Positions 46,145-62,035 of a stretch of 64,000 bases of DNA are shown piece after piece (within the stretch, counting starts at the first letter, position 1; the number at the start of each line of letters is the position of its first letter). The stretch covers positions 124,001 through 188,000 of the forward strand of contig MFFN01000001.1 in NCBI GenBank assembly GCA_001777915.1. The letters are read 5' to 3'. The translations under genes were made by a program, and so were the position numbers. The notes below the pieces were generated by a model. That model made no database searches, had not been told where the DNA came from, and was given only the letters and a program-made list of their open reading frames with translations. The stretch is from Candidatus Edwardsbacteria bacterium RifOxyA12_full_54_48 (GTDB lineage Bacteria; Edwardsbacteria; AC1; EtOH8).

Positions 46145-46513
46145 ATGACCCAGGGATACGAACAAAGAGTGAAGGAACTGGTGGATAACATCCCGGGAGC
46201 CCTATGCGCCAGCCTTACCGGGACCGACGGCATCGGGATAACATTCTATCAATCCGGGCTGGACCTGGATCCCACCCTGGCCGACGCCGAGTTCGCCACC
46301 ATGCTGTCCGCCTCCCGGCGGGCGGCCGAGAACCTTTCACTGGGGAGCATCTCCGAGCAGACCACCGCCACCGAAAAACTGACCGTCCTGATCAAGATGG
46401 TGGGGACGGATTTCTACCTGAGCGTGGTCATGCAGCAGGGCGCCGGAAACCTTGGAATGGCCCGGCTGCTGCTGAGAAGGGCCTCCGAAGAACTCAAAAA
46501 CATTTTATATTGA
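46145..46513 (+). CDS. Roadblock/LC7-domain protein
   Basis: 122 residues from ATG 46145 (AGGGAGGGAG upstream). A single roadblock domain: LVDNIPGALCASLTGTDGIGITFY, FATMLSASRRAAENLSLGSI, KLTVLIKMVGTDFYLSVVMQQGAGNLGMARLLLRRASEEL. Roadblock proteins regulate small Ras-like GTPases such as MglA; no such GTPase is in the window. Two further roadblock-like proteins lie between subunits C and F of the same ATPase operon (54220, 54522). Confidence 0.82.
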   Translation: MTQGYEQRVKELVDNIPGALCASLTGTDGIGITFYQSGLDLDPTLADAEFATMLSASRRAAENLSLGSISEQTTATEKLTVLIKMVGTDFYLSVVMQQGAGNLGMARLLLRRASEELKNILY

Positions 46514-46526
46514 ACGGGAGCAGATT

Positions 46527-46880
46527 GTGTCATCGGAAAAGCATAACGACCAACAGGATCAGGCACAACAGATAATCAGCAGCCTGGCACAGAGGGAGCA
46601 GGAGCTTCAGAAGAAGACCGAAGAAGCCAAAGCCGAGGCCGATCGAATAATCGAAAAAGCCAAAGCCGAGGCTTCCGCTATTTTAAGCAACGCCGGCTCC
46701 CGCATGGATGAAAATAATCTGAGCGGCAAAAAAGAGACGGCCCAAAAAGCGCTGCAGCTCATAGAACAGAAAAAGAAACAGGCCGTCGCCCAGGCCGGCC
46801 GGCTGGAGCAGCAGGCTGCGGCCAAACAGGGCCAGGCCGTGGAGCTGATCATCAAACAGGTTTTTCCGGAGAACGGATAG
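46527..46880 (+). CDS. V-type ATPase subunit G/H (peripheral stalk)
   Basis: 117 residues, nearly all coiled-coil helix: AQREQELQKKTEEAKAEADRIIEKAKAEASAIL ... QKALQLIEQKKKQAVAQAGRLEQQA. This is the composition and length of bacterial/archaeal V/A-ATPase subunit G (also called H), which pairs with subunit E in the peripheral stalk. The start is GTG 46527 with GGGAG upstream. The stop is immediately followed by subunit I. Confidence 0.82.
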   Translation: MSSEKHNDQQDQAQQIISSLAQREQELQKKTEEAKAEADRIIEKAKAEASAILSNAGSRMDENNLSGKKETAQKALQLIEQKKKQAVAQAGRLEQQAAAKQGQAVELIIKQVFPENG

Positions 46881-48773
46881 ATGATCGTCGCCATGAGCCG
46901 GGTGCTGATAGTGGGCCCGAAGATAATAAGCTCAGAAGTGATAAGGTCGTTGCACAAAATGGGCCGGCTGCATATTGCCCAGGTCAAGCCCCAGGGCCTG
47001 ATCCGCCATGCCGAGCTTGATGCCGAGGAGGCCCATTTGAAGCATACCATGGAACGGCTGCAGCAGGAACTGGACGGCCTGCTGACATTGATGGGATTCC
47101 ACGGGCGCCCCATCAAAACCGCCCTGCCGTCCGATTGGGAAAAGCTGCTGGCCGACCTGATTGTGCAGCGGGCCGAGATCAACCAACTGGTAAAACAGAA
47201 GCTGGATCTGAGCGACGAGCTGGCGCTGGTCGAAAATTACCGGGCGGCCTTTGAGGCCCTGTCCCCGCTGATGTCAAAACTGGAATCCAGCCGGAGGATA
47301 AAGGCCTTTGGTTTTATGACGAAACTTCAGGAGTCGGCGGCGGTGGATGCCCTGCAAAAGGAACTGCGAAAACTGACGGAAGGGCGGGTCGAATTCTACC
47401 GCCACCAGGTCGATGAGAAAAAATTAGCCGTCCTGGCGGTGTTCCATAAAGATGACGAAGAAAAAATCAAAGGTTTCTTTACCAAGGCCGGGGTCAATGA
47501 ACTGAAACTGCCTTCGGCGGTGGCCTCGCTTAATATGGCGGAGGCGGTCAGCCAGCTTAAGGAAAAAAGCCGCCAACTGCCGGAGATGATCTCCGAAATA
47601 AGCAAAAGAATTTCGGATATCTCGCGTCAGCAGGGGCCGGTGTTCGAGGCCTACCGCCTGATGGTGGGGGACGAACTGGCCCGGTTTCATGCCAAAGAGG
47701 AACTTCCGGAGGGGCGATTCACCTTCTACCTTCAGGGGTACCTGCCGGCCGATGATCTGCCGGTTTTGAAAGAAATGCTGTTTAAAAAATTCGGCGACAA
47801 AGTTTCGGTCCAGGCCCTGGAGATAGACCACCACGACTCTCCCAACGTTCCGGTGATCCTTCAGAACCATAAAATGATCAGACCCTTCGAATTGGCACTT
47901 TCCATTTTCAATCCACCCCAATACGGCACGGTGGATCCCACCCCGTTCATTGCCTTTTTCTTCCCATTGTTCTTCGGCTTCATCGTGGGCGACATTGGCT
48001 ACGGAGCGGTGATGCTGACGGCGGCGGTTATTTTGCATCTGAAACTCAGAGACAACCAGTTGGTCAGGACCCTGACCACCATTTTTGCCTTCTGCGCGGT
48101 CTGGACCATAATCTTCGGCGCGGTCTACGGCGAGCTGTTCGGCGATCTGGGTGAGCATATGCACTGGATCAAGCCGATGTCGGAAAAACTCAACCGGATG
48201 AGCAGCGAATCCATCATGACGCTTTTCAAAATAGCGGTGTTCATCGGGGCGGTCCAGGTGTACGTCGGCTTCGGCATCATGCTTTACACCGGCATCAAAC
48301 AGCGAAACCTGCATCATATCTTGGAGCCGGTGGCCTTCGCCCTGGGGGTTTTGGGTGTATTCGGCATATTCTTCACCATGATGGTCAGGATCCTGCCGGT
48401 CTCTCTGATGTGGCCTTCCATAGTCCTGACCGGGGCCAGCGCGGTGACCCTGGGGATCCTAGCCGGAGTGGCCGGTCCCATCGAGATATTCGGGGCGGTG
48501 GGCAACATCCTGTCCTATGCCCGTCTTTTTGCCATCGGGCTTTCGGCGGCCTACCTGGCCTACGCCGCCAACCTGATCGGCCGGACCATCGGCGGTCTGC
48601 CCGGGCTTCTGGTGGCGGCCCTAGTGGTGCATCCGCTGTTCTTCGCCCTGGGCCTGATCAGCCCCATCATGCAGCCCTTCCGTCTCCAGGTGGTGGAATT
48701 CTTAACCAAGTTCAAATACCACGATTATTCCGGTAAAAAATACAAACCATTAAAAACATTAGGAGGTGACTAA
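46881..48773 (+). CDS. ntpI: V-type ATPase subunit I
   Basis: 630 residues. N-terminal cytoplasmic half (to about 330) of mixed helices starting SRVLIVGPKIISSEVIRSLHKMGRLHI; C-terminal membrane half with 7-8 helices including FIAFFFPLFFGFIVGDIGYGAVML, AVWTIIFGAVYGELFGD, and FGAVGNILSYARLFAIGLSAAYLAYAAN with the arginine (YARLFA) that faces the rotor. It forms the ion half-channels and the stator anchor. The start follows subunit G/H directly. Confidence 0.95.
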   Translation: MIVAMSRVLIVGPKIISSEVIRSLHKMGRLHIAQVKPQGLIRHAELDAEEAHLKHTMERLQQELDGLLTLMGFHGRPIKTALPSDWEKLLADLIVQRAEINQLVKQKLDLSDELALVENYRAAFEALSPLMSKLESSRRIKAFGFMTKLQESAAVDALQKELRKLTEGRVEFYRHQVDEKKLAVLAVFHKDDEEKIKGFFTKAGVNELKLPSAVASLNMAEAVSQLKEKSRQLPEMISEISKRISDISRQQGPVFEAYRLMVGDELARFHAKEELPEGRFTFYLQGYLPADDLPVLKEMLFKKFGDKVSVQALEIDHHDSPNVPVILQNHKMIRPFELALSIFNPPQYGTVDPTPFIAFFFPLFFGFIVGDIGYGAVMLTAAVILHLKLRDNQLVRTLTTIFAFCAVWTIIFGAVYGELFGDLGEHMHWIKPMSEKLNRMSSESIMTLFKIAVFIGAVQVYVGFGIMLYTGIKQRNLHHILEPVAFALGVLGVFGIFFTMMVRILPVSLMWPSIVLTGASAVTLGILAGVAGPIEIFGAVGNILSYARLFAIGLSAAYLAYAANLIGRTIGGLPGLLVAALVVHPLFFALGLISPIMQPFRLQVVEFLTKFKYHDYSGKKYKPLKTLGGD

Positions 48774-49118
48774 ATGAAGAAACTTCTGGCTATCGCCCTG
48801 CTGACCCTGGTTTTGATGCCCCTGGCCACTTTGGCCCTGGCCCAGGACCACGGAACGCCCGCCCCCGCCGAGACTGCCTCGCAGCCCGTCCAGTCCTCCC
48901 AGGACATCGTGATCTGGAAGGCCCTGGGGGCCGCACTGGCCATAGGCTTTGCCGCCTTCGCCACGGCCTGGGCCCAGAGCAAGATCGGCGCGGCCGCGGC
49001 CGGCGCCATGGCCGAGAAGCCCGAGGTGGGCGGCCTGATGATCGTGCTGGAGGCACTGCCCGAGACCATCATCATTCTGGGATTCGTCATCGCCATCATG
49101 ATAGTCGGCATGAAGTAA
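48774..49118 (+). CDS. ntpK: V-type ATPase subunit K (proteolipid ring)
   Basis: 114 residues. N-terminal signal-like helix ending near LALAQ, a short linker (DHGTPAPAET...), then one helical hairpin: ALGAALAIGFAAFATAWAQ and LMIVLEALPETIIILGFVIAIMIV. The ion-binding glutamate is E97 in ALPET. It is thus the short two-helix type after signal removal. The Q often found after PET in Na+-type rings is an isoleucine here, so a proton ring is more likely (inference). AGGAGGTGA gives it the strongest ribosome site of the operon, fitting its high copy number. Confidence 0.92.
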   Translation: MKKLLAIALLTLVLMPLATLALAQDHGTPAPAETASQPVQSSQDIVIWKALGAALAIGFAAFATAWAQSKIGAAAAGAMAEKPEVGGLMIVLEALPETIIILGFVIAIMIVGMK

Positions 49119-49233: not shown

Positions 49234-49806
49234 ATGAACTCTGAACTGATCAAAGTCATCGAACTGGAGGCCGAAGCCGAGCGCCAGAGGATCCTGGAGG
49301 CTTCGCAAAAAAATGCCGGCGAGATAGTCCAACAGGCCCGGGCCCAGGCGGCGGAACTGGAACGGAAGTCTTTGGCCGACAGCCAGGCCCTGGAAAAGAC
49401 CGAGATGGCCAAGGCCGACAGCACGGCCAATCTTCAGGCCATGGCCATCCTGCTGGAGGTTAAAAGCCGGATCATTGACGGGGTGTTCCAATCGGCCTAC
49501 CAGAAGATCAAAAAAACCCCGCCGGAGAGATACCGCCAGGCCTTAAAGAGTATGCTGCGGGAGGCGGCGGAGGATCTGCCCGGCGAAACGGTGGTGTTGA
49601 CCAGCCCGGGCGATCTGAAGGTGGTGCAGGAGCTGGTGAAGGCCGCCAAGCTGAAGGCCGAGGTGAGGCCGGACCCCCAGGTTCAGGAGGGGATCATCAT
49701 GAGCGATAAAAGCGGCAGCCATTCGGTTCTCAACCGGTTCTCCGACCGGCTGGAAAGGGCCCGACCCTCCCTGGTGGCCCGTATCTCTGAAACATTGTGG
49801 GGATAG
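49234..49806 (+). CDS. ntpE: V-type ATPase subunit E
   Basis: 190 residues: an N-terminal coiled coil (LEAEAERQRILEASQKNAGEIVQQARAQAAELERKSLADSQA) and a C-terminal globular domain (RYRQALKSMLREAAEDLPGETVVLTSPGDL, VQEGIIMSDKSGSHSVLNRFSDRLERARPSLVARI) typical of the peripheral-stalk subunit E. No clear ribosome site is seen before ATG 49234. It should pair with the G/H subunit at 46527. Confidence 0.9.
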   Translation: MNSELIKVIELEAEAERQRILEASQKNAGEIVQQARAQAAELERKSLADSQALEKTEMAKADSTANLQAMAILLEVKSRIIDGVFQSAYQKIKKTPPERYRQALKSMLREAAEDLPGETVVLTSPGDLKVVQELVKAAKLKAEVRPDPQVQEGIIMSDKSGSHSVLNRFSDRLERARPSLVARISETLWG

Positions 49807-49809
49807 CAG

Positions 49810-50847
49810 ATGCCCAGCGATTACGGATATATCAACGCCAGGCTTAAAGGGCAGCACAGCAGACTATTGAAACCGGGGGCCTACGAGGAGCTGCTGGGCC
49901 TGCCCGATTTCAACGCTTTTGCCAAGTGGCTGGCCACCAGCCCCTATTCCAAGGAGTGGCAGGAGGCCCAAACCCGGTTTGCCGGGCTGGCGGCGGCCGA
50001 GGAGGCCCTGGCTGCCAACTTCAATTCCTCGACCCGGCTGATGCGGAAGATCTCCGATGGAGGCCCCAATAAACTGATAGGCATCATCCTCCGGAGATGG
50101 GACCTGGAAAATGTCAAGGCTGTTGTCCGGGGCATTCATAACCACTGGGATAGCGATGAAATTTTTCGGGCGGTGCTGCCGGCCGGGAACCTGGATAAGG
50201 TGAAATTGAAAGAGCTCTGCCGGAAGGCCGATCTTCGGGAGCTGGCCGACACCCTGGCCACCTGGGGCGAGGAGCTGGCCGGGCCCCTCACCAGGGCCCT
50301 GCCGGAATACCAGAAAGAGCATCAACTGACCGGGCTGGAGCTGGCCCTGGACCAGTTCTTCTTCAGCCAGGCTTTGAAGGGTCTGGCCGGCCTGGATTAC
50401 AACAAAAGTCTGGTCCGTGAACTTCTGCGCCGGGAGATCGATCTGTTGAATGCCAAGGCGCTGCGGCGGCTGATGGCCCGGGAGGGGATCGATCTGCCGG
50501 AGGCGGTCAGGAATTATCTGCCGGGCGGCAAGCTGCTGACACTGGAAAAATACGCCGCCCTGCTGGATCCCAAGGAATCCCAAAGGGCCCTGCGCTCCAT
50601 CCGGGGAACTTCCCTGCACCGGCTGTTGACGGCCGACGATAGCCAGGGAGGCCGGGAGGAGAAGCTGGACAGGGAGGAATGGCGCCAAAAGGCCCTGGCC
50701 TACCGGGGGGATCCGCTGGGGATCGATGTGGCGGTGGGCTTTTTGTGGCAGAAGTATTTCGAAGTGGTCAATTTGAAACTTATCGCCCGGGGAAAGCATT
50801 TCGGGATTCCCGCCGAGGATATCAGACATCAGCTGTTGACGGCCTAG
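49810..50847 (+). CDS. ntpC: V-type ATPase subunit C/d
   Basis: 345 residues, nearly all helical, with YGYINARLKGQHSRLLKPGAYEELLGL at the start, LIGIILRRWDLENVKAVVRGI in the middle, and NLKLIARGKHFGIPAEDIR near the end. This is the AC39-like subunit C/d that joins the rotor stalk to the proteolipid ring. It starts 4 bases after the subunit E stop. In most bacterial V-ATPase operons subunit F comes next; here four membrane genes intervene. Confidence 0.9.
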   Translation: MPSDYGYINARLKGQHSRLLKPGAYEELLGLPDFNAFAKWLATSPYSKEWQEAQTRFAGLAAAEEALAANFNSSTRLMRKISDGGPNKLIGIILRRWDLENVKAVVRGIHNHWDSDEIFRAVLPAGNLDKVKLKELCRKADLRELADTLATWGEELAGPLTRALPEYQKEHQLTGLELALDQFFFSQALKGLAGLDYNKSLVRELLRREIDLLNAKALRRLMAREGIDLPEAVRNYLPGGKLLTLEKYAALLDPKESQRALRSIRGTSLHRLLTADDSQGGREEKLDREEWRQKALAYRGDPLGIDVAVGFLWQKYFEVVNLKLIARGKHFGIPAEDIRHQLLTA

Positions 50848-50894: not shown

Positions 50895-52067
50895 ATGAAA
50901 AAGTTATTCATGGTTCTGACGCTGGCCTGTCTGCTGTCCCCGGCCCGGGCCCTGGAGCCGCCGGTGGATGTCAAGGCGGTGGATACTCCCAACGACGAGG
51001 GGAGTTCCATCACCGTAAGCTGGGGAAGGTCGCCCCAGGATCAGGGGGATGCCACCGTCTTCAAGGGCTACCAGATCCTGCGGGCGGAGAATGACAAAGG
51101 ACCCTTTACTGAGGCCGGCTTCGTCATCTGTGGCAAGAACGATTTCCGCGACAATGTCGAGAACCATAAAAGCTATTATTACCAGGTCCGGGCGGTCGCC
51201 TTCCCGGATTCTTCGGATGCGGTCTTGACCGGCCCGGTCGCCGCCACCGCCCAGTGGTTCGACAGCAGCCGGACCAACGTGCTGATACTGACCATCATCC
51301 TCTGTTTCCTGATCATCTGGTATATCGAGCGGGCCAAGAAGGGCGAGGAACTGTTCATCCGCAAGATCCAGGGGCTGGATGCCATCGACGAGGCGGTGGG
51401 CCGTTCCACCGAGCTGGGCAAACCCATCATGTTCTCCTTCGGCCTGGGCGAGATCAAGGACATCGTGACGGTGGCCGCCCTGGCCATCCTGCGCCAGGTG
51501 GCGGTGCGCTGCGCCCAGCACGGCACCGAACTGCTGGTCCCCAACTGGGACCCGCTGGTGATGGCCGCCGCCCAGGAGACCGTGCAGCAGGCCTATTCCG
51601 AGCCGGGCCGGCCCGACCTCTACAAGGAGGGCAACGTCAGCTTTCTGACCTCCGACCAGTTCGGCTACGCCGCCGGGGTGGACGGGATGATGCTCCGGCA
51701 GAAGCCGGGGGCGGTGTTCTTCATGGGCTATTTCTACGCCGAGGCCCTGCTGATGTCCGAGACCGGCCATTCCATCGGGGCCATCCAGATAGCCGGCACC
51801 ACCGCCATCACCCAGCTGCCGTTCTTCATCGCCTCCTGCGATTACACCCTGATCGGCGAGGAGATGCTGGCGGCCTCCTGCTATCTGAAGAAGGATCCCC
51901 AGCTGCTGGGCAGCCTCAAGGGGGAGGATTTCGTCAAGGCCTTTCTGATAATCGGCTTTGCCCTGATGGCTCTCTGGGGCACGGCGGGATATATTTTGAA
52001 CAATGCGGGAAACCCCTGGATGATGAACGTCTTCCAGGCCGTCAAGAACTGGTTCATAACCGGTTAG
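50895..52067 (+). CDS. Membrane protein with FN3-like domain, first gene of an inserted module (DUF6754-like)
   Basis: 390 residues. Signal peptide (MKKLFMVLTLACLLSPARA), a fibronectin type III-like domain (about 20-115: PPVDVKAVDTPNDEGSSITVSWGRSPQDQG, YQILRAEND, YYYQVRAVA), a transmembrane helix (NVLILTIILCFLIIWYI), a ~200-residue soluble region (EELFIRKIQGLDAIDEAVGRSTELGKPIMFSFGLGEIKD ... AIQIAGTTAITQLPFFIASCDYTLIGEEMLAASCYL) and a C-terminal helix (LIIGFALMALWGTAGYIL). The soluble part resembles what I recall as DUF6754; the function is unknown. The start has TAGGTG upstream. It is 47 bases after subunit C. Confidence 0.75.
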   Translation: MKKLFMVLTLACLLSPARALEPPVDVKAVDTPNDEGSSITVSWGRSPQDQGDATVFKGYQILRAENDKGPFTEAGFVICGKNDFRDNVENHKSYYYQVRAVAFPDSSDAVLTGPVAATAQWFDSSRTNVLILTIILCFLIIWYIERAKKGEELFIRKIQGLDAIDEAVGRSTELGKPIMFSFGLGEIKDIVTVAALAILRQVAVRCAQHGTELLVPNWDPLVMAAAQETVQQAYSEPGRPDLYKEGNVSFLTSDQFGYAAGVDGMMLRQKPGAVFFMGYFYAEALLMSETGHSIGAIQIAGTTAITQLPFFIASCDYTLIGEEMLAASCYLKKDPQLLGSLKGEDFVKAFLIIGFALMALWGTAGYILNNAGNPWMMNVFQAVKNWFITG

Positions 52068-52089
52068 ATTCCGGCAGAGGAGATACAAA

Positions 52090-52722
52090 ATGAAAAAAGA
52101 GATACCCTTGGCCATAACCTTCATCACCGGGCTGATAATCATCGTGACCTTCTTCATCCCCCACCAGCCGCTGGGGACCATGCAGCAGAGGCTGTTGTTG
52201 TGGTATTCCATCGTGCTGGGCTTCACCATGCTGCTGGGAATGGACAGCCTGCTGCGCAGCAACCTCCGGAAGATCGCCAAGCGTTCGCCGGGCTGGCCCT
52301 TCGCCCTGGTGCTGATCATCGGTTTTTTGGGGACCCTGATCGCCGGCATCTACACCTGGGCCACCAGCGAATCCCTGCTGAGCCTGGGCTCGTCATTCAT
52401 GTATGTCTACACCTATTTCATCATTCCCCTGCAGGCCACCATGTTCTCACTGCTGGCCTTCTTCATCGCCTCGGCCGCCTACCGGGCCTTCCGGGCCAGG
52501 ACCCTGGAGGCCACCCTGCTGCTGATAACCGCCGCCATCGTGATGCTGGGCCGGGTGCCCATCGGAGCCGAGATCTGGGACAAATTTCCGCTGATCCAGG
52601 ACTGGATCATGGAGGTCCCCCAGATGGCCGCCAAGCGGGGCATCGTCATGGGGGTGGCCCTGGGTACCATAGCCATGTCACTCCGGGTGATCCTGGGGCT
52701 GGAAAGAACCTACCTTACATAA
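52090..52722 (+). CDS. Polytopic membrane protein of the inserted module
   Basis: 210 residues with about six hydrophobic helices: IPLAITFITGLIIIVTFFIP, LLWYSIVLGFTMLLGM, FALVLIIGFLGTLIAGIYTW, SFMYVYTYFIIPLQATMFSLLAFFIA, TLLLITAAIVMLGRV, IVMGVALGTIAMSLRVIL. No known catalytic motif. GAGGAG precedes ATG 52090. It is found between two single-pass proteins with similar soluble domains and may be their membrane core. Confidence 0.72.
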   Translation: MKKEIPLAITFITGLIIIVTFFIPHQPLGTMQQRLLLWYSIVLGFTMLLGMDSLLRSNLRKIAKRSPGWPFALVLIIGFLGTLIAGIYTWATSESLLSLGSSFMYVYTYFIIPLQATMFSLLAFFIASAAYRAFRARTLEATLLLITAAIVMLGRVPIGAEIWDKFPLIQDWIMEVPQMAAKRGIVMGVALGTIAMSLRVILGLERTYLT

Positions 52723-52748
52723 ATTAAGGTGATAAAGGAGATGGTGAA

Positions 52749-53573
52749 ATGAAATTCTTTGAAAACATAGCCAACATAGACAGCCGGATCATCTACCTGC
52801 TGTTGTTCATCGTAGTGCTGATCCCGGTGGCCTTCAAGCTGGTCCTGCCGGTAAGGGTTTCCGAGCCGGTCCAGGCGGCCTACGATTCCATCGAAAAACT
52901 GCCGGAGGGGTCGGTGATCCTTTTCTCGGTGGATTACGATGCCTCCTCGGCGCCCGAGATCCAGCCGATGCTGCTGGCCACCTTGCGGCACGCCTTCAGC
53001 AAAAAGCACAAAGTAGTTCTGCTGGGGCAGTGGGCCCTGGGCCTGCCGTTCGGCGAGATCGGCCTCAACGAGATCGCCCCCCAGTTCGACGCCAAATACG
53101 GGGTGGATTACGTCAACCTGGGCTACCGCCCCGGATACCGGGCCCAGATGGTGGGGATGGGGCGGGATATCCGCGACTTCTTCGCCAGCGATTACAAAGG
53201 CACTCCGGTCGACTCCATTCCCCTGATGCATGGCATTCACAACTACAACGACATAGACCTGCTGGTGGGCCTGGAGGCCGGTCAGGCCGGGGATGAGTGG
53301 ATCCAGTTCGCCGGCGCCCGCTACGGGATCAACATCATCATCGGGGCCACCGGGGTCATCGCCCCGGACATGTTCCACTATCTGCAGGCCAAACAGATCA
53401 AGGGCCTGGTGGGCGGCCTGCAGGGGGCGGCCGAATACGAGACCCTGGTCAAGCATGCCGGGACCGGCATCGCCGGGATGGTGGCCCAGTCTTACGCCCA
53501 TCTGCTGCTGTTGGGGTTCATCCTGATAGGCAATGTGGGCTATTTCGTGATCAGAAGGAGGAAACAAGCATGA
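52749..53573 (+). CDS. Bitopic membrane protein of the inserted module, remote relative of the first gene
   Basis: 274 residues: an N-terminal helix (IIYLLLFIVVLIPVAFKLVL), a ~200-residue soluble alpha/beta region (VILFSVDYDASSAPEIQPMLLATLRHAF, DLLVGLEAG, YGINIIIGATGVIAPDMFHYLQAKQIKGLVGGLQGAAEYETL) and a C-terminal helix (LLLLGFILIGNVGYFVI). The last soluble block aligns by eye with the block of the protein at 50895 (G-x-I-x-I-x-G-T-x-x-I ... G), and both are followed by a similar helix. GATAAAGGAG precedes the ATG. Function unknown. Confidence 0.72.
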   Translation: MKFFENIANIDSRIIYLLLFIVVLIPVAFKLVLPVRVSEPVQAAYDSIEKLPEGSVILFSVDYDASSAPEIQPMLLATLRHAFSKKHKVVLLGQWALGLPFGEIGLNEIAPQFDAKYGVDYVNLGYRPGYRAQMVGMGRDIRDFFASDYKGTPVDSIPLMHGIHNYNDIDLLVGLEAGQAGDEWIQFAGARYGINIIIGATGVIAPDMFHYLQAKQIKGLVGGLQGAAEYETLVKHAGTGIAGMVAQSYAHLLLLGFILIGNVGYFVIRRRKQA

Positions 53574-54181
53574 TGCAGATAATCGGGACCTGGATAGCGG
53601 CCGGGCTGACCCTGGCCATATTTTCATTCCTCTATAAGGACAACCCCTTCTACAAATTCGCCGAGCACCTCTATGTGGGGGTCTCGGCCGCCTATGCCAT
53701 ACTGTATGTCTTCTATTTTGACGTCAAGCCGCTGCTGATCGAGAAGTTCATCTCCGAGCAGGGGGCCGAGCGCTGGATCATACTGATCCCGGCGGCCTTC
53801 GGCCTGATCATGCTGGCCCGCTGGATACCCAAGATCTCCTGGCTGTCCCGCTGGTCCATCGCCCTGACGGTGGGGATCGCCGCCGGGCTGGGCATCACCG
53901 GACAGATCCAGGGGATCCTACTGCCCCAGATCCGGGGCACACTGGTTTCGCTGACCACCGTAAACAACGCCATAATGGTGATCGGGGTGATCGCCACCCT
54001 GATCTATTTCTATTTTTCCATTGCCCACCAGGGCGTCGTCAAACACGGAGCCAGGCTGGGAATGGTCTTTATCATGGTGGCCTTCGGGGCCAGCTTCGGA
54101 TACACCGTCATGGCCCGCATCTCGCTGCTGATCGGTCGACTGCATTTCCTGGTGTACGAGTGGCTCCATCTTGTTAAATGA
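53570..54181 (+). CDS. Polytopic membrane protein of the inserted module
   Basis: 203 residues from ATG 53570 (AAGGAGG upstream), overlapping the previous stop. About six helices: MQIIGTWIAAGLTLAIFSFL, AEHLYVGVSAAYAILYVFYF, WIILIPAAFGLIMLA, WSIALTVGIAAGLGITG, NAIMVIGVIATLIYFYF, LGMVFIMVAFGASFGYTVM. A conserved-looking loop KDNPFYKFAEHLYVG follows helix 1. It is the last of four membrane genes set between ATPase subunits C and F. Confidence 0.72.
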   Translation: MMQIIGTWIAAGLTLAIFSFLYKDNPFYKFAEHLYVGVSAAYAILYVFYFDVKPLLIEKFISEQGAERWIILIPAAFGLIMLARWIPKISWLSRWSIALTVGIAAGLGITGQIQGILLPQIRGTLVSLTTVNNAIMVIGVIATLIYFYFSIAHQGVVKHGARLGMVFIMVAFGASFGYTVMARISLLIGRLHFLVYEWLHLVK

Positions 54182-54219: not shown

Positions 54220-54522
54220 ATGGAAGACCTGACCGGAATAAAAGGGGTGCTGGGCTTTGCGGTCTACGTCAGCGACAGCCAGGTGTCCGGCTCGGCCAAG
54301 GGGAAGCTGGGCGACAAGGCCTCGGACATAGAACAGTTCTGGGTCAACGCCGCTTCGGTGATATCAAACAATCTGAACCTGGGGGAGGTCAAAGAAGTGG
54401 CGGTCGGCGGGAAGGACCGCCAGGTGCTGATGGTGATGTCCCCCGACAAGACCGTCCTGTGCGAACTGGATCCCAAGGCCAACTGGAAGAGCATCTCCGC
54501 CGAAGTAAGGAGGAAGATGTGA
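54220..54522 (+). CDS. Small roadblock-like protein in the ATPase operon
   Basis: 100 residues: IKGVLGFAVYVSDSQVSGSAKGKLGDK, FWVNAASVISNNLNLGEVKEVAVGGKDRQVLMVMSPDKTVLCELDPK. The strand-helix-strand pattern and G-V-L-G-F / V-L-M-V-M-S blocks resemble a roadblock/LC7 fold, though the match is weaker than at 46145. AAGGGGGATGG precedes the ATG. The stop overlaps the next gene (TGATG). Confidence 0.55.
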   Translation: MEDLTGIKGVLGFAVYVSDSQVSGSAKGKLGDKASDIEQFWVNAASVISNNLNLGEVKEVAVGGKDRQVLMVMSPDKTVLCELDPKANWKSISAEVRRKM

Positions 54523-55073
54523 TGTCTTTACAAGACGCTTTAAAGACCAAGCTGGCCGGGCAGAAGGCGGCCTTCGTGATAGATGGATCAGGCAAGTGTC
54601 AGCAGCAGGGAGGGGATGAATCGGCCATCCTGCAGAGCACCCAGTTCGCCAAGCAGATATACGACATCGTCGGACTGTCTTCGCTGGACACCCTGTGGGT
54701 CAGCGCCGGGAACGGAACCTTTGTCACTAAAACAACCTCCCAGGGGCAGGCCGGGCTGATACTGGACCAGAATCCGGACATACCATCGGCCCTAAGTTTC
54801 ATAGACAAAGCCCTGTCCTCATCGACCGACGGGCCGGCCGCCGGGACCGGGGATGTGATGGGAAAGGTGCGGAAGATAGCCGCCGAATACCTGACCGACT
54901 TCGCCGACACCGCCCTGATGATCCAGATCAAGCAGGCCGGGCTGGAGGAGAAGAACCCCCGGCCGGACCAGCTGGAGAAGCTGGCCGCCGGGCTGGAGAA
55001 GGCGGCCCTGATGATCACCGGGCCGGAGAAGGCCAGGGAGATGGCCGAACAGATAAGGAAGGCGATAAAATAA
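54522..55073 (+). CDS. Roadblock-like protein with helical C-terminal domain
   Basis: 183 residues from ATG 54522 (AAGGAGG upstream). N-terminal part (KAAFVIDGSGKCQQQGGDESAILQSTQFAKQIYDIVGLSSLDTLWVSAGNGTFVTKTTSQGQAGLILDQN) has the strand order of a roadblock domain. After a serine-rich linker comes a helical domain (DVMGKVRKIAAEYLTDFADTALMIQIKQAGL ... AREMAEQIRKAIK). Unknown function. It sits directly upstream of subunit F (3 bases). Confidence 0.6.
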   Translation: MSLQDALKTKLAGQKAAFVIDGSGKCQQQGGDESAILQSTQFAKQIYDIVGLSSLDTLWVSAGNGTFVTKTTSQGQAGLILDQNPDIPSALSFIDKALSSSTDGPAAGTGDVMGKVRKIAAEYLTDFADTALMIQIKQAGLEEKNPRPDQLEKLAAGLEKAALMITGPEKAREMAEQIRKAIK

Positions 55074-55076
55074 GCG

Positions 55077-55400
55077 ATGGAAAGATTGGCCGTAATAACC
55101 GATCCCTGCACCGCCACCGGATTCCGGATGGCTGGCATAGAGACCCATGAGGTGGCCGACATCCACCAGATGCGCAGCAAGGTGCTGGAGCTGATGAAGA
55201 GCGACAGCTACGGCATGATAGCGGTCAACGAGGACCTGGGCGGGGACCTGGGGGATGACATCAACCGCCTGATCAAGGGCCGGGCCCTGCCGGTGATCCT
55301 GCCGTTCCCGGTTCCCCAGGGCGGGGTGGTGGAGTCGGGCGAGGCTTATCTTTCCAAATTAGTCAAGCAGGCCATAGGGTTCTACGTCAAGTTGAAATGA
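55077..55400 (+). CDS. ntpF: V-type ATPase subunit F
   Basis: 107 residues: RLAVITDPCTATGFRMAGIETHEVAD, SDSYGMIAVNEDLGG, LPVILPFPVPQGG and a C-terminal helix AYLSKLVKQAIGFYVKLK. It is the central-shaft subunit F, which has a CheY-like fold and moves with the rotor. Usual length for the family. It is separated from subunit A by a 151-base gap with hairpins. Confidence 0.9.
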   Translation: MERLAVITDPCTATGFRMAGIETHEVADIHQMRSKVLELMKSDSYGMIAVNEDLGGDLGDDINRLIKGRALPVILPFPVPQGGVVESGEAYLSKLVKQAIGFYVKLK

Positions 55401-55551: not shown

Positions 55552-57294
<1,743 letters not shown>

Positions 57295-57438: not shown

Positions 57439-58353
57439 ATGCGTCTAGTAACCAGAGCGGATTTCGATGGATTGATCTGCGGCGTCCTGTTGAAGGAGGC
57501 CGGCATCATCGACAATATTTTGTTCGTCCACCCCAAGGACGTCCAGGACGGCAAGGTCGAGGTCACGGCCGACGACGTGCTGGCCAACGTGCCCTATGCC
57601 AAGGGCTGCGGGATGTGGTTCGACCATCACATGTCCGAGCTGGAGCGCAAGGCCTTCCCGGCCGATTACAAGGGCTGGTCCAGCCCGGAGAAGAGCTGCG
57701 CTCGGGTGATCTACAAGCATTACGGCGGGTCCGACAAGTTCCCCCGCTTCACCGAGATGATGACCGCGGTGGACAAGTCCGACTCCGGCGACCTAAGCAT
57801 CGAGGAGGTGGCCGAGCCCCGGGGCTGGCTGCTGCTGGCGGTGGTGATGGACCCCCGCACCGGCCTGGGCCGCTACAGCGACTACCGGATCAGCAACCTG
57901 CAGCTGATGCAGGACCTGATGGAATCCTGCCGGACCATGAGCATCGAGGAGATCCTGGAGCAGCCGGACGTCAAGGAGCGGGTCAAGCGCTATCGCGAAT
58001 CGGAGTGGATGTACAAAGAGATGATCAAGGGCCATTCCAGGGTGGAGGACAAGGTGCTGGTGGTGGACCTGCGCAATATCGAGGAGATCCCCAGCGGCAA
58101 CCGGTTCGTGGAATACGGCATGTTCCCCAATATCAATATCTCCATCCGGGTGATGTGGGGCCTCAAGAAGCAGAACGTGGTGTTCGCGGTGGGGCACAGC
58201 ATCATCAACCGGACCTCCCAGACCAAGGTGGGCTCGCTGATGCTGAAGTACGGCGGCGGCGGGCATGACAAGGTGGGGACCTGCCAGGTGCCGGCCGAGA
58301 AGGCCGAGGAGGTGCTGAAGGAACTAGTGGAGCAGATCAAGGCGGACGGGTAA
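57439..58353 (+). CDS. DHH-family phosphoesterase in the ATPase operon
   Basis: 304 residues. RADFDGLICGVLL (motif I, D-x-D), MWFDHHMSELE (DHH motif), DKSDSGD-type motif, LAVVMDPRTGLG, and a C-terminal DHHA1-like region ending MLKYGGGGHDKVGTCQVP (GGGH). All manganese ligands are present. Relatives cleave pyrophosphate, oligonucleotides (NrnA) or c-di-AMP. Members of this group have been annotated as exopolyphosphatase-like. Lying between subunits A and B it is unusual. The substrate is unknown. Confidence 0.88.
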   Translation: MRLVTRADFDGLICGVLLKEAGIIDNILFVHPKDVQDGKVEVTADDVLANVPYAKGCGMWFDHHMSELERKAFPADYKGWSSPEKSCARVIYKHYGGSDKFPRFTEMMTAVDKSDSGDLSIEEVAEPRGWLLLAVVMDPRTGLGRYSDYRISNLQLMQDLMESCRTMSIEEILEQPDVKERVKRYRESEWMYKEMIKGHSRVEDKVLVVDLRNIEEIPSGNRFVEYGMFPNINISIRVMWGLKKQNVVFAVGHSIINRTSQTKVGSLMLKYGGGGHDKVGTCQVPAEKAEEVLKELVEQIKADG

Positions 58354-58371
58354 ATGATAGGCGGGGTTGTT

Positions 58372-58797
58372 ATGAATGAAAATCCAGAAATACAAACAGC
58401 GTTAGATAACGAGCATTTGCGGCTTTTGGCGATAGGTTATAAAATATCTGCAGGTGTAATCATTCTGTACTCTTTATTTGGTTTGATGTATATGTTTATG
58501 GGAATTTTCATTGGTATTATTGATAAACATAGACAAACGTCCCAGCCACCAATAGAGTGGTTTTTAGCAATATTTGGTTTTGGTATCTTTGCTGTTTCAG
58601 CCATTTTCGTCGTATTGAATTTTATGGCGGCAAAAAGGCTTGAACAGCGCCGTTCAAAAACATTCTGCACGGTTATCGCTGCGCTAAATTGCATTGGGAT
58701 CCCATACCACACTATACTGGGTGTTTTTACCTTGGTCATATTGACCAGGAAATCAATTATAAAATTATTTGAAACAAACGGGGGTGCGATAGGTTGA
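58372..58797 (+). CDS. AT-rich four-helix membrane protein of a widespread unnamed family
   Basis: About 141 residues from ATG 58372 (58354 is an alternative). DNEHLRLLAIGYKISAGVIILYSLFGLMYMFMGIFIGI is followed by FLAIFGFGIFAVSAIFVVLNFMAAKRLEQRRSKTFCTVIAALNCIGIPYHTILGVFTLVILTRKSIIKLF. The D-x-E-H-L-R-L-L start, the R-R-x-x-T-F-C middle and the G-x-x-L-G-V-F-T end are typical of a small membrane protein family found across bacteria with no known function. It is strongly AT-rich, unlike the ATPase genes around it, and is inserted between the DHH gene and subunit B. Confidence 0.72.
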   Translation: MNENPEIQTALDNEHLRLLAIGYKISAGVIILYSLFGLMYMFMGIFIGIIDKHRQTSQPPIEWFLAIFGFGIFAVSAIFVVLNFMAAKRLEQRRSKTFCTVIAALNCIGIPYHTILGVFTLVILTRKSIIKLFETNGGAIG

Positions 58798-58934: not shown

Positions 58935-60347
<1,413 letters not shown>

Positions 60348-61411: not shown

Positions 61412-62035
61412 ATGGAAAACGTATCACCAACCAGGATGAACCTGCTGGCCCGAAAGGCCCAGGTATCATTGGCCAAACAGGGGGTGGACCTGCTGAAGAA
61501 GAAACGCGACGCCCTGGTGGCGGAGTTCTTCGGCGTGGTCCGGAACACGCTGGAATCGCGCAACAAGCTCAACGCGGTGGCCCAGGAGGCCGTCAATCAG
61601 CTGAACGTCGCGGCCTCCATAGAGGGCAAGCCGCTGCTGGAATCGGCGGCCCTGGCCGGAAAACGCCAGGTGATGCTGCAGGTGGCCGAGAAGAACGTCT
61701 GGGGCATCAAGATCCCCGAGGTCTCCACCGCCCACAGCCTGAAAAGGGACCCCTTCAAGAGAGGGTACAACGCCGCCACCGCCCCGGGCCGGGTGATAAA
61801 GACCGCCGATAATTTCGAGGAGATGATCGACCTGCTGGTGGAGGTGGCCGGGCGGGAGACCCGCCTGAAAAAACTGGGCCAGGAGATAAAGAAGACCACC
61901 CGCCGGGTCAACGCCCTGGAACAGATCGTGATCCCCCGGCTGTACCGCCAGATGGCCTACATCAAAAGCGTCCTGGAGCAGAGGGAGAGGGAGGATGTCT
62001 TCCGGCTCAAATTGATAAAGAACAAAGGCGAATGA
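61412..62035 (+). CDS. ntpD: V-type ATPase subunit D
   Basis: 207 residues of mostly helical rotor-shaft protein: SPTRMNLLARKAQVSLAKQGVDLLKKKRDALVAEF, NVWGIKIPEV, and the long C-terminal helix RRVNALEQIVIPRLYRQMAYIKSVLEQREREDVFRLKLIKNK. The RRVNALE...IP motif is diagnostic. It is the last of the recognised ATPase subunits. Its stop overlaps the next gene. Confidence 0.94.
   Translation: MENVSPTRMNLLARKAQVSLAKQGVDLLKKKRDALVAEFFGVVRNTLESRNKLNAVAQEAVNQLNVAASIEGKPLLESAALAGKRQVMLQVAEKNVWGIKIPEVSTAHSLKRDPFKRGYNAATAPGRVIKTADNFEEMIDLLVEVAGRETRLKKLGQEIKKTTRRVNALEQIVIPRLYRQMAYIKSVLEQREREDVFRLKLIKNKGE

Follow-up and report, generated by a model that had tools for sequence, protein, structure and literature searches.

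What are four genes for membrane proteins doing in the middle of a bacterial V-ATPase operon? In the stretch of DNA analysed (64,000 nt from a member of Candidatus Edwardsbacteria, hereafter the window), the genes g1-g4 (positions 50895-54181, plus strand) form a tight array inside such an operon. Read from the sequence, the subunit C gene and g1 are 47 nt apart, and the distances within the array are 22 nt (g1/g2), 26 nt (g2/g3) and -4 nt (g3/g4), the last being a stop-start overlap (ATGA); the ribosome-site-like motifs AGGTG, GAGGAG, AAGGAG and AAGGAGG lie upstream of the starts of g1, g2, g3 and g4, respectively. These observations confirm a preliminary description of the locus, which had given the coordinates of the four genes, their tight spacing and ribosome sites, and the one overlap. 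Pfam and NCBIfam matches, together with gene position, provided the V-ATPase gene order G-I-K-E-C-[insert]-F-A-B-D (Table 1); the earlier reading that the order G-I-K-E-C-F-A-B-D is broken after C was therefore correct. Two of its points needed amending. The four inserted genes are real, but the insert between C and F holds six, RB1 and RB2 also lying before the subunit F gene; and the interruption after C is accompanied by others, between A and B and, by one more gene, between B and D. RB1 and RB2 are counted as members of the inserted cassette because, at nine loci with no V-ATPase (L006, L018, L019, L073, L080, L084, L101, L123 and L135), roadblock-like/DUF4388 genes related to them follow g4, in most cases immediately. 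In the window's family, each of the nine V-ATPase loci read has a further roadblock-like gene, RB0, upstream of the subunit G gene. Roadblock-fold proteins, those of Ragulator, also bind the eukaryotic V-ATPase, a parallel to RB0 that is possibly a coincidence.

Table 1. Genes of the V-ATPase operon in the window and of the cassette inserted in it
Feature	Position	Strand	Description and basis
RB0	46145..46513	+	Roadblock-like; Robl_LC7 E 0.003, below the Pfam cut-off
V-ATPase subunit G/H-like	46527..46880	+	Weak V-type subunit H/E matches; position
V-ATPase subunit I	46881..48773	+	NCBIfam E 3e-81
V-ATPase subunit K	48774..49118	+	NCBIfam E 8e-11
V-ATPase subunit E	49234..49806	+	NCBIfam E 1e-17
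V-ATPase subunit C	49810..50847	+	NCBIfam AhaC E 8e-50; PF01992
g1	50895..52067	+	390 aa; signal peptide, FN3, TM helix, DUF6754, C-terminal TM helix
g2	52090..52722	+	210 aa; six-helix membrane protein; hydropathy/charge profile, family alignment
g3	52749..53573	+	274 aa; TM helix, Rossmann-like domain, C-terminal TM helix; AlphaFold2 model
g4	53570..54181	+	203 aa; polytopic, about six helices; sequence, hydropathy, family alignment
RB1	54220..54522	+	Small roadblock-like protein; inserted-cassette member, from the position of relatives elsewhere
RB2	54519..55073	+	Partner of RB1; inserted-cassette member; ATGA overlap with RB1
V-ATPase subunit F	55077..55400	+	PF01990 E 4.5e-16; downstream border of the insert
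V-ATPase subunit A	55552..57294	+	54-59% identity to A subunits of other V-ATPase loci
DHHA1-like gene	57439-58353		Between V-ATPase A and B; conserved in relatives
Small membrane-protein gene	58354-58797		Between V-ATPase A and B
V-ATPase subunit B	58935..60347	+	55-60% identity to B subunits of other loci
V-ATPase subunit D	61412..62035	+	Position; 25-34% identity to the D region of other loci

The product of g1 is a full member of the Pfam family DUF6754 (PF20539; E 4e-108, 360.7 bits against a cut-off of 27), the domain spanning positions of about 51246-51965, with FN3 at about 50964-51245. Residues R170, E173, R268, E283, E289, Q298, Q307 and D316 are invariant, C315 being nearly so, which makes them candidate sites for a ligand. 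The Pfam fn3 HMM found no match in g1; the FN3 domain named in the preliminary description was confirmed by structure, the N-terminal part of the model resembling titin and fibronectin FN3 structures (Foldseek, E 1e-6). The AlphaFold2 models of g1 and g3 (pLDDT 94 and 95, respectively) each place, between membrane helices, a Rossmann-like domain of six strands in alternating alpha/beta order; Foldseek returned no specific fold relative for this domain in either protein, the g1 search being swamped by FN3. By the positive-inside rule, the DUF6754 domain of g1 is predicted to be cytoplasmic and its FN3 domain extracytoplasmic; the charge distribution in g3, the C-terminal TM helix of which ends in RRRK, places its Rossmann-like domain outside the cytoplasm. 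Hydropathy and the positive-inside rule give g2 six helices with an N-in/C-in arrangement and fit two helices in g3, in line with the helix counts first assigned; the six assigned to g4 came out less cleanly by hydropathy (about six). Homology between g1 and g3, and between g2 and g4, was considered and rejected since no profile similarity was seen; despite this, the predicted strand-helix order of the soluble domains of g1 and g3 looks similar. No Pfam or NCBIfam family, known transporter families included, matched g2, g3 or g4 above cut-off, and the same scans revealed no similarity of g1-g4 to any V-ATPase subunit, as had been noted before. The module is not a set of V-ATPase subunits.

Genes g1-g4 represent a single copy of a widely recurring, stand-alone unit. 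DUF6754 was detected in 108 of 386 sampled genomes (28%). The window's own genome has four copies, each in the order g1-g2-g3-g4, three of them away from the V-ATPase. When module loci were drawn from the DUF6754-positive genomes among the 386 plus 80 named contigs, 184 complete modules were found in exactly this order in 137 loci, often in tandem arrays, of up to four; the carriers among the named contigs were WOR-3, Latescibacterota, Zixibacteria, Eisenbacteria, Coatesbacteria, Poribacteria, Fermentibacteria, Myxococcota and others. With the same order in so many modules and loci, the arrangement is not a matter of chance. No mention of DUF6754, PF20539 or PF13941 (the family of a partner protein described below), nor of Edwardsbacteria together with a V-type ATPase, was found in the openly licensed papers searched; for this reason, and because g2-g4 match no family, the module is called new here, and it appears to be without prior description in that literature. 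The Pfam entry for DUF6754 describes just one domain, with no assigned function, and differs from the module in that neither g2-g4 nor the other fixed partners of g1, Lip and MutL (see below), form part of it. At one locus (L054:3263-8237) a module is followed by three extra copies of g3.

Fixed order, duplication as a whole unit and replacement of all four genes together (see below) support joint assembly, and g1-g4 very probably encode the parts of one complex; the earlier proposal of one membrane complex, expressed together, is thus well supported as far as gene arrangement can indicate. The alternative, that g1-g4 are functionally linked but act separately, as enzymes or transporters in a common pathway, would fit the only moderate co-inheritance of paralogues (73% for g2, 64% for g3 and 56% for g4 in a distance-matrix/paralogue-matching test). 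It is nonetheless very unlikely, given the fixed order and single-unit duplication seen in more than 100 loci, and given that g1-g4 all encode membrane proteins, each with a constant size and topology.

The preliminary description went further and proposed that the complex perhaps acts on, or is driven by, the ATPase. Outside the window's family, however, a V-ATPase C subunit was found in 28 of 98 genomes with DUF6754 and in 82 of 278 without it (odds ratio 0.96). In a set of 80 DUF6754 genomes, 47 lacked this subunit. In 23 fragmentary genomes the module and the V-ATPase lay on different contigs; since such separation is weak evidence by itself in fragmentary genomes, loci were also read directly. 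Outside the window's phylum, not one of 129 module loci carried V-ATPase A or B genes; ten foreign V-ATPase loci belonging to DUF6754 genomes carried none of g1-g4. The host operon thus shares subunits G-I-K-E-C-F-A-B-D with bacterial A/V-type ATPase operons in general, but differs from the other bacterial V-ATPase loci examined in carrying g1-g4. The V-ATPase as general partner of the module is not supported. That the module is an accessory or energy-coupling device working on, or driven by, the pump is accordingly improbable: neither the foreign loci nor co-occurrence beyond the window's own family favour it, many carriers have no V-ATPase C subunit, and three of the four copies in the window's genome lie elsewhere. 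What speaks for such a device comes from the window, where the tight spacing resembles that of a single transcript, and from its family, in which the module lies between C and F in every readable genome and this slot has been filled twice, by different lineages.

The constant companions of the module are instead a MutL-type actin-fold ATPase and Lip, a barrel-sandwich protein. Lip (∼375 aa, with barrel-sandwich features and weak Biotin_lipoyl/RnfC_N matches) was found in 103 of the 386 genomes, all 103 of them DUF6754-positive (Fisher P = 1e-88, genome relatedness ignored); the MutL subfamily was found in 99, of which 97 were DUF6754-positive. At the cut-offs used, five DUF6754 genomes had no Lip match and 11 no member of the MutL subfamily. 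The recurrent cluster is S128-MutL-Lip-g1-g2-g3-g4, the small proteins S128 and PH also recurring upstream of the module alongside Lip and MutL. MutL and Lip are usually encoded once per genome, as against several modules. Since these are the constant companions, the V-ATPase operon is just one home of the module. The neighbourhood survey therefore divides the preliminary interpretation: the unit of four stands, while the general coupling to the V-ATPase does not, the four genes recurring together but mostly far from ATPase genes and with other constant partners, even though their placement in the window's own family is fixed. At six loci (L162-L166 and L168), S128-MutL-Lip clusters run from Lip to the roadblock genes without an intervening module, the modules lying elsewhere in the genome. 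Partial Lip-like matches also occur within frames of ∼900-1030 aa in several genomes (e.g. G360:C156 and G249:C32).

The partner ATPase belongs to PF13941 (MutL-type ASKHA; E 9e-126, 420 bits), the Pfam family that also contains GlmL, the glutamate mutase accessory protein. It differs from GlmL in being found beside a membrane module and in scoring below the NCBIfam cut-offs (226.9 against 475 bits for the GlmL equivalog, 159 against 204 for the GlmL subfamily). In the type IV pilus, PilM-PilN-PilO combine an actin-fold ATPase with bitopic membrane proteins. The likeness to the present system would be a loose analogy only: in both, genes for bitopic membrane proteins accompany one for a cytoplasmic ASKHA-fold protein. 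The module differs in having two polytopic subunits and other soluble domains, and Pfam and NCBIfam reveal no sequence similarity between the two. Sequence searches of solved structures gave no significant match for Lip, g3, g4 or MutL. A known anti-phage defence system was also considered and rejected, as neither g1-g4 nor Lip nor MutL gave a PADLOC match.

If the V-ATPase is not a general partner, the constancy of the C-F slot in the window's family has to be accounted for. Of the ten genomes considered (G000-G009), nine, from four genera, have an operon that could be read, and each of these nine has the module between C and F; the tenth contig ends at the slot. The g1 tree requires two separate entries into this slot. 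The slot module of genus "g4" is 71, 83, 75 and 82% identical (genes g1 to g4, respectively) to the MutL/Lip-linked module at L006, compared with 50, 49, 45 and 50% to the usual slot module; the V-ATPase genes of this genus are conserved as elsewhere in the family. S128-MutL-Lip and, downstream, the roadblock genes are still present in this genus, with no module between them (L162-L164). Either the whole module was moved or converted into the V-ATPase operon, replacing another, or it entered independently. The V-ATPase operon is therefore one home, occupied twice by the module, in a single phylum.

It might be argued that this placement is incidental, a cassette having landed in a well-expressed operon and been inherited, with the second occupant arriving by gene conversion or relocation and with no functional meaning. 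The absence of a general link between module and V-ATPase would be in keeping with this, as would the unrelated genes that also break the operon, in its A-B and B-D intervals. We regard it as rather unlikely, since the module has been retained in all nine genomes across four genera and since, in genus "g4", the swap took in all four genes, left the slot occupied and emptied the donor locus. That a whole Lip/MutL-linked module took the C-F slot in genus "g4" is the strongest argument that co-expression with the V-ATPase may matter in the window's phylum. As two different module lineages came to hold the slot, manufacture alongside the pump probably suits the Edwardsbacteria lineage; and there may be a coupling of module and V-ATPase specific to the window's family, in which the placement is fixed and two module lineages, unrelated to each other, have taken it up. 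The exchange of module lineages inside this operon amounts to a natural experiment on the joint production of a pump and a membrane complex.

Taken together, these results are best explained if g1-g4 encode an undescribed stand-alone inner-membrane complex, probably powered by MutL and Lip, one copy of which lies, with two roadblock-like genes, in the V-ATPase operon (probability roughly 0.6). In such a complex, two bitopic subunits would carry Rossmann-like domains on opposite faces of the membrane, that of g1 in the cytoplasm (with FN3 outside) and that of g3 outside, and g2 and g4 would be the polytopic subunits. The MutL-type ATPase would power or assemble the complex, and Lip would link the ATPase to it. 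MutL and Lip, usually present as one set per genome, are about as likely as not to act on all the module copies. The complex might move or sense a small ligand or signal across the membrane, although this is doubtful. More speculative still is a new class of ATP-driven machine in which a MutL-type ATPase and a Lip adaptor power several paralogous complexes per cell, with paralogues recruited twice into the V-ATPase operon giving the Edwardsbacteria an ion-gradient-coupled version. An ordered module is present in over a quarter of the sampled genomes, often in several copies, and the ATPase and adaptor track it almost perfectly; if the proposed explanation is true, it would give many uncultured phyla a system of six core proteins that can be put to the test.

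Some variants of g1 deserve mention. In-frame TGA codons, suggestive of selenocysteine, were suspected in two foreign DUF6754 copies; the idea was dropped since the translated frames have no internal stop. On a Zixibacteria chromosome (L138:9827-12214), a fusion protein unites DUF6754 with a peptidase S49 (SppA/NfeD-like) domain; it stands alone, without g2-g4. The FN3 domain of g1 is optional, the protein ranging from 266 aa, without FN3, to about 975 aa; at L022, L032, L036 and L063, g1 proteins of 909-975 aa have long N-terminal extensions that are partly FN3/Ig-like.
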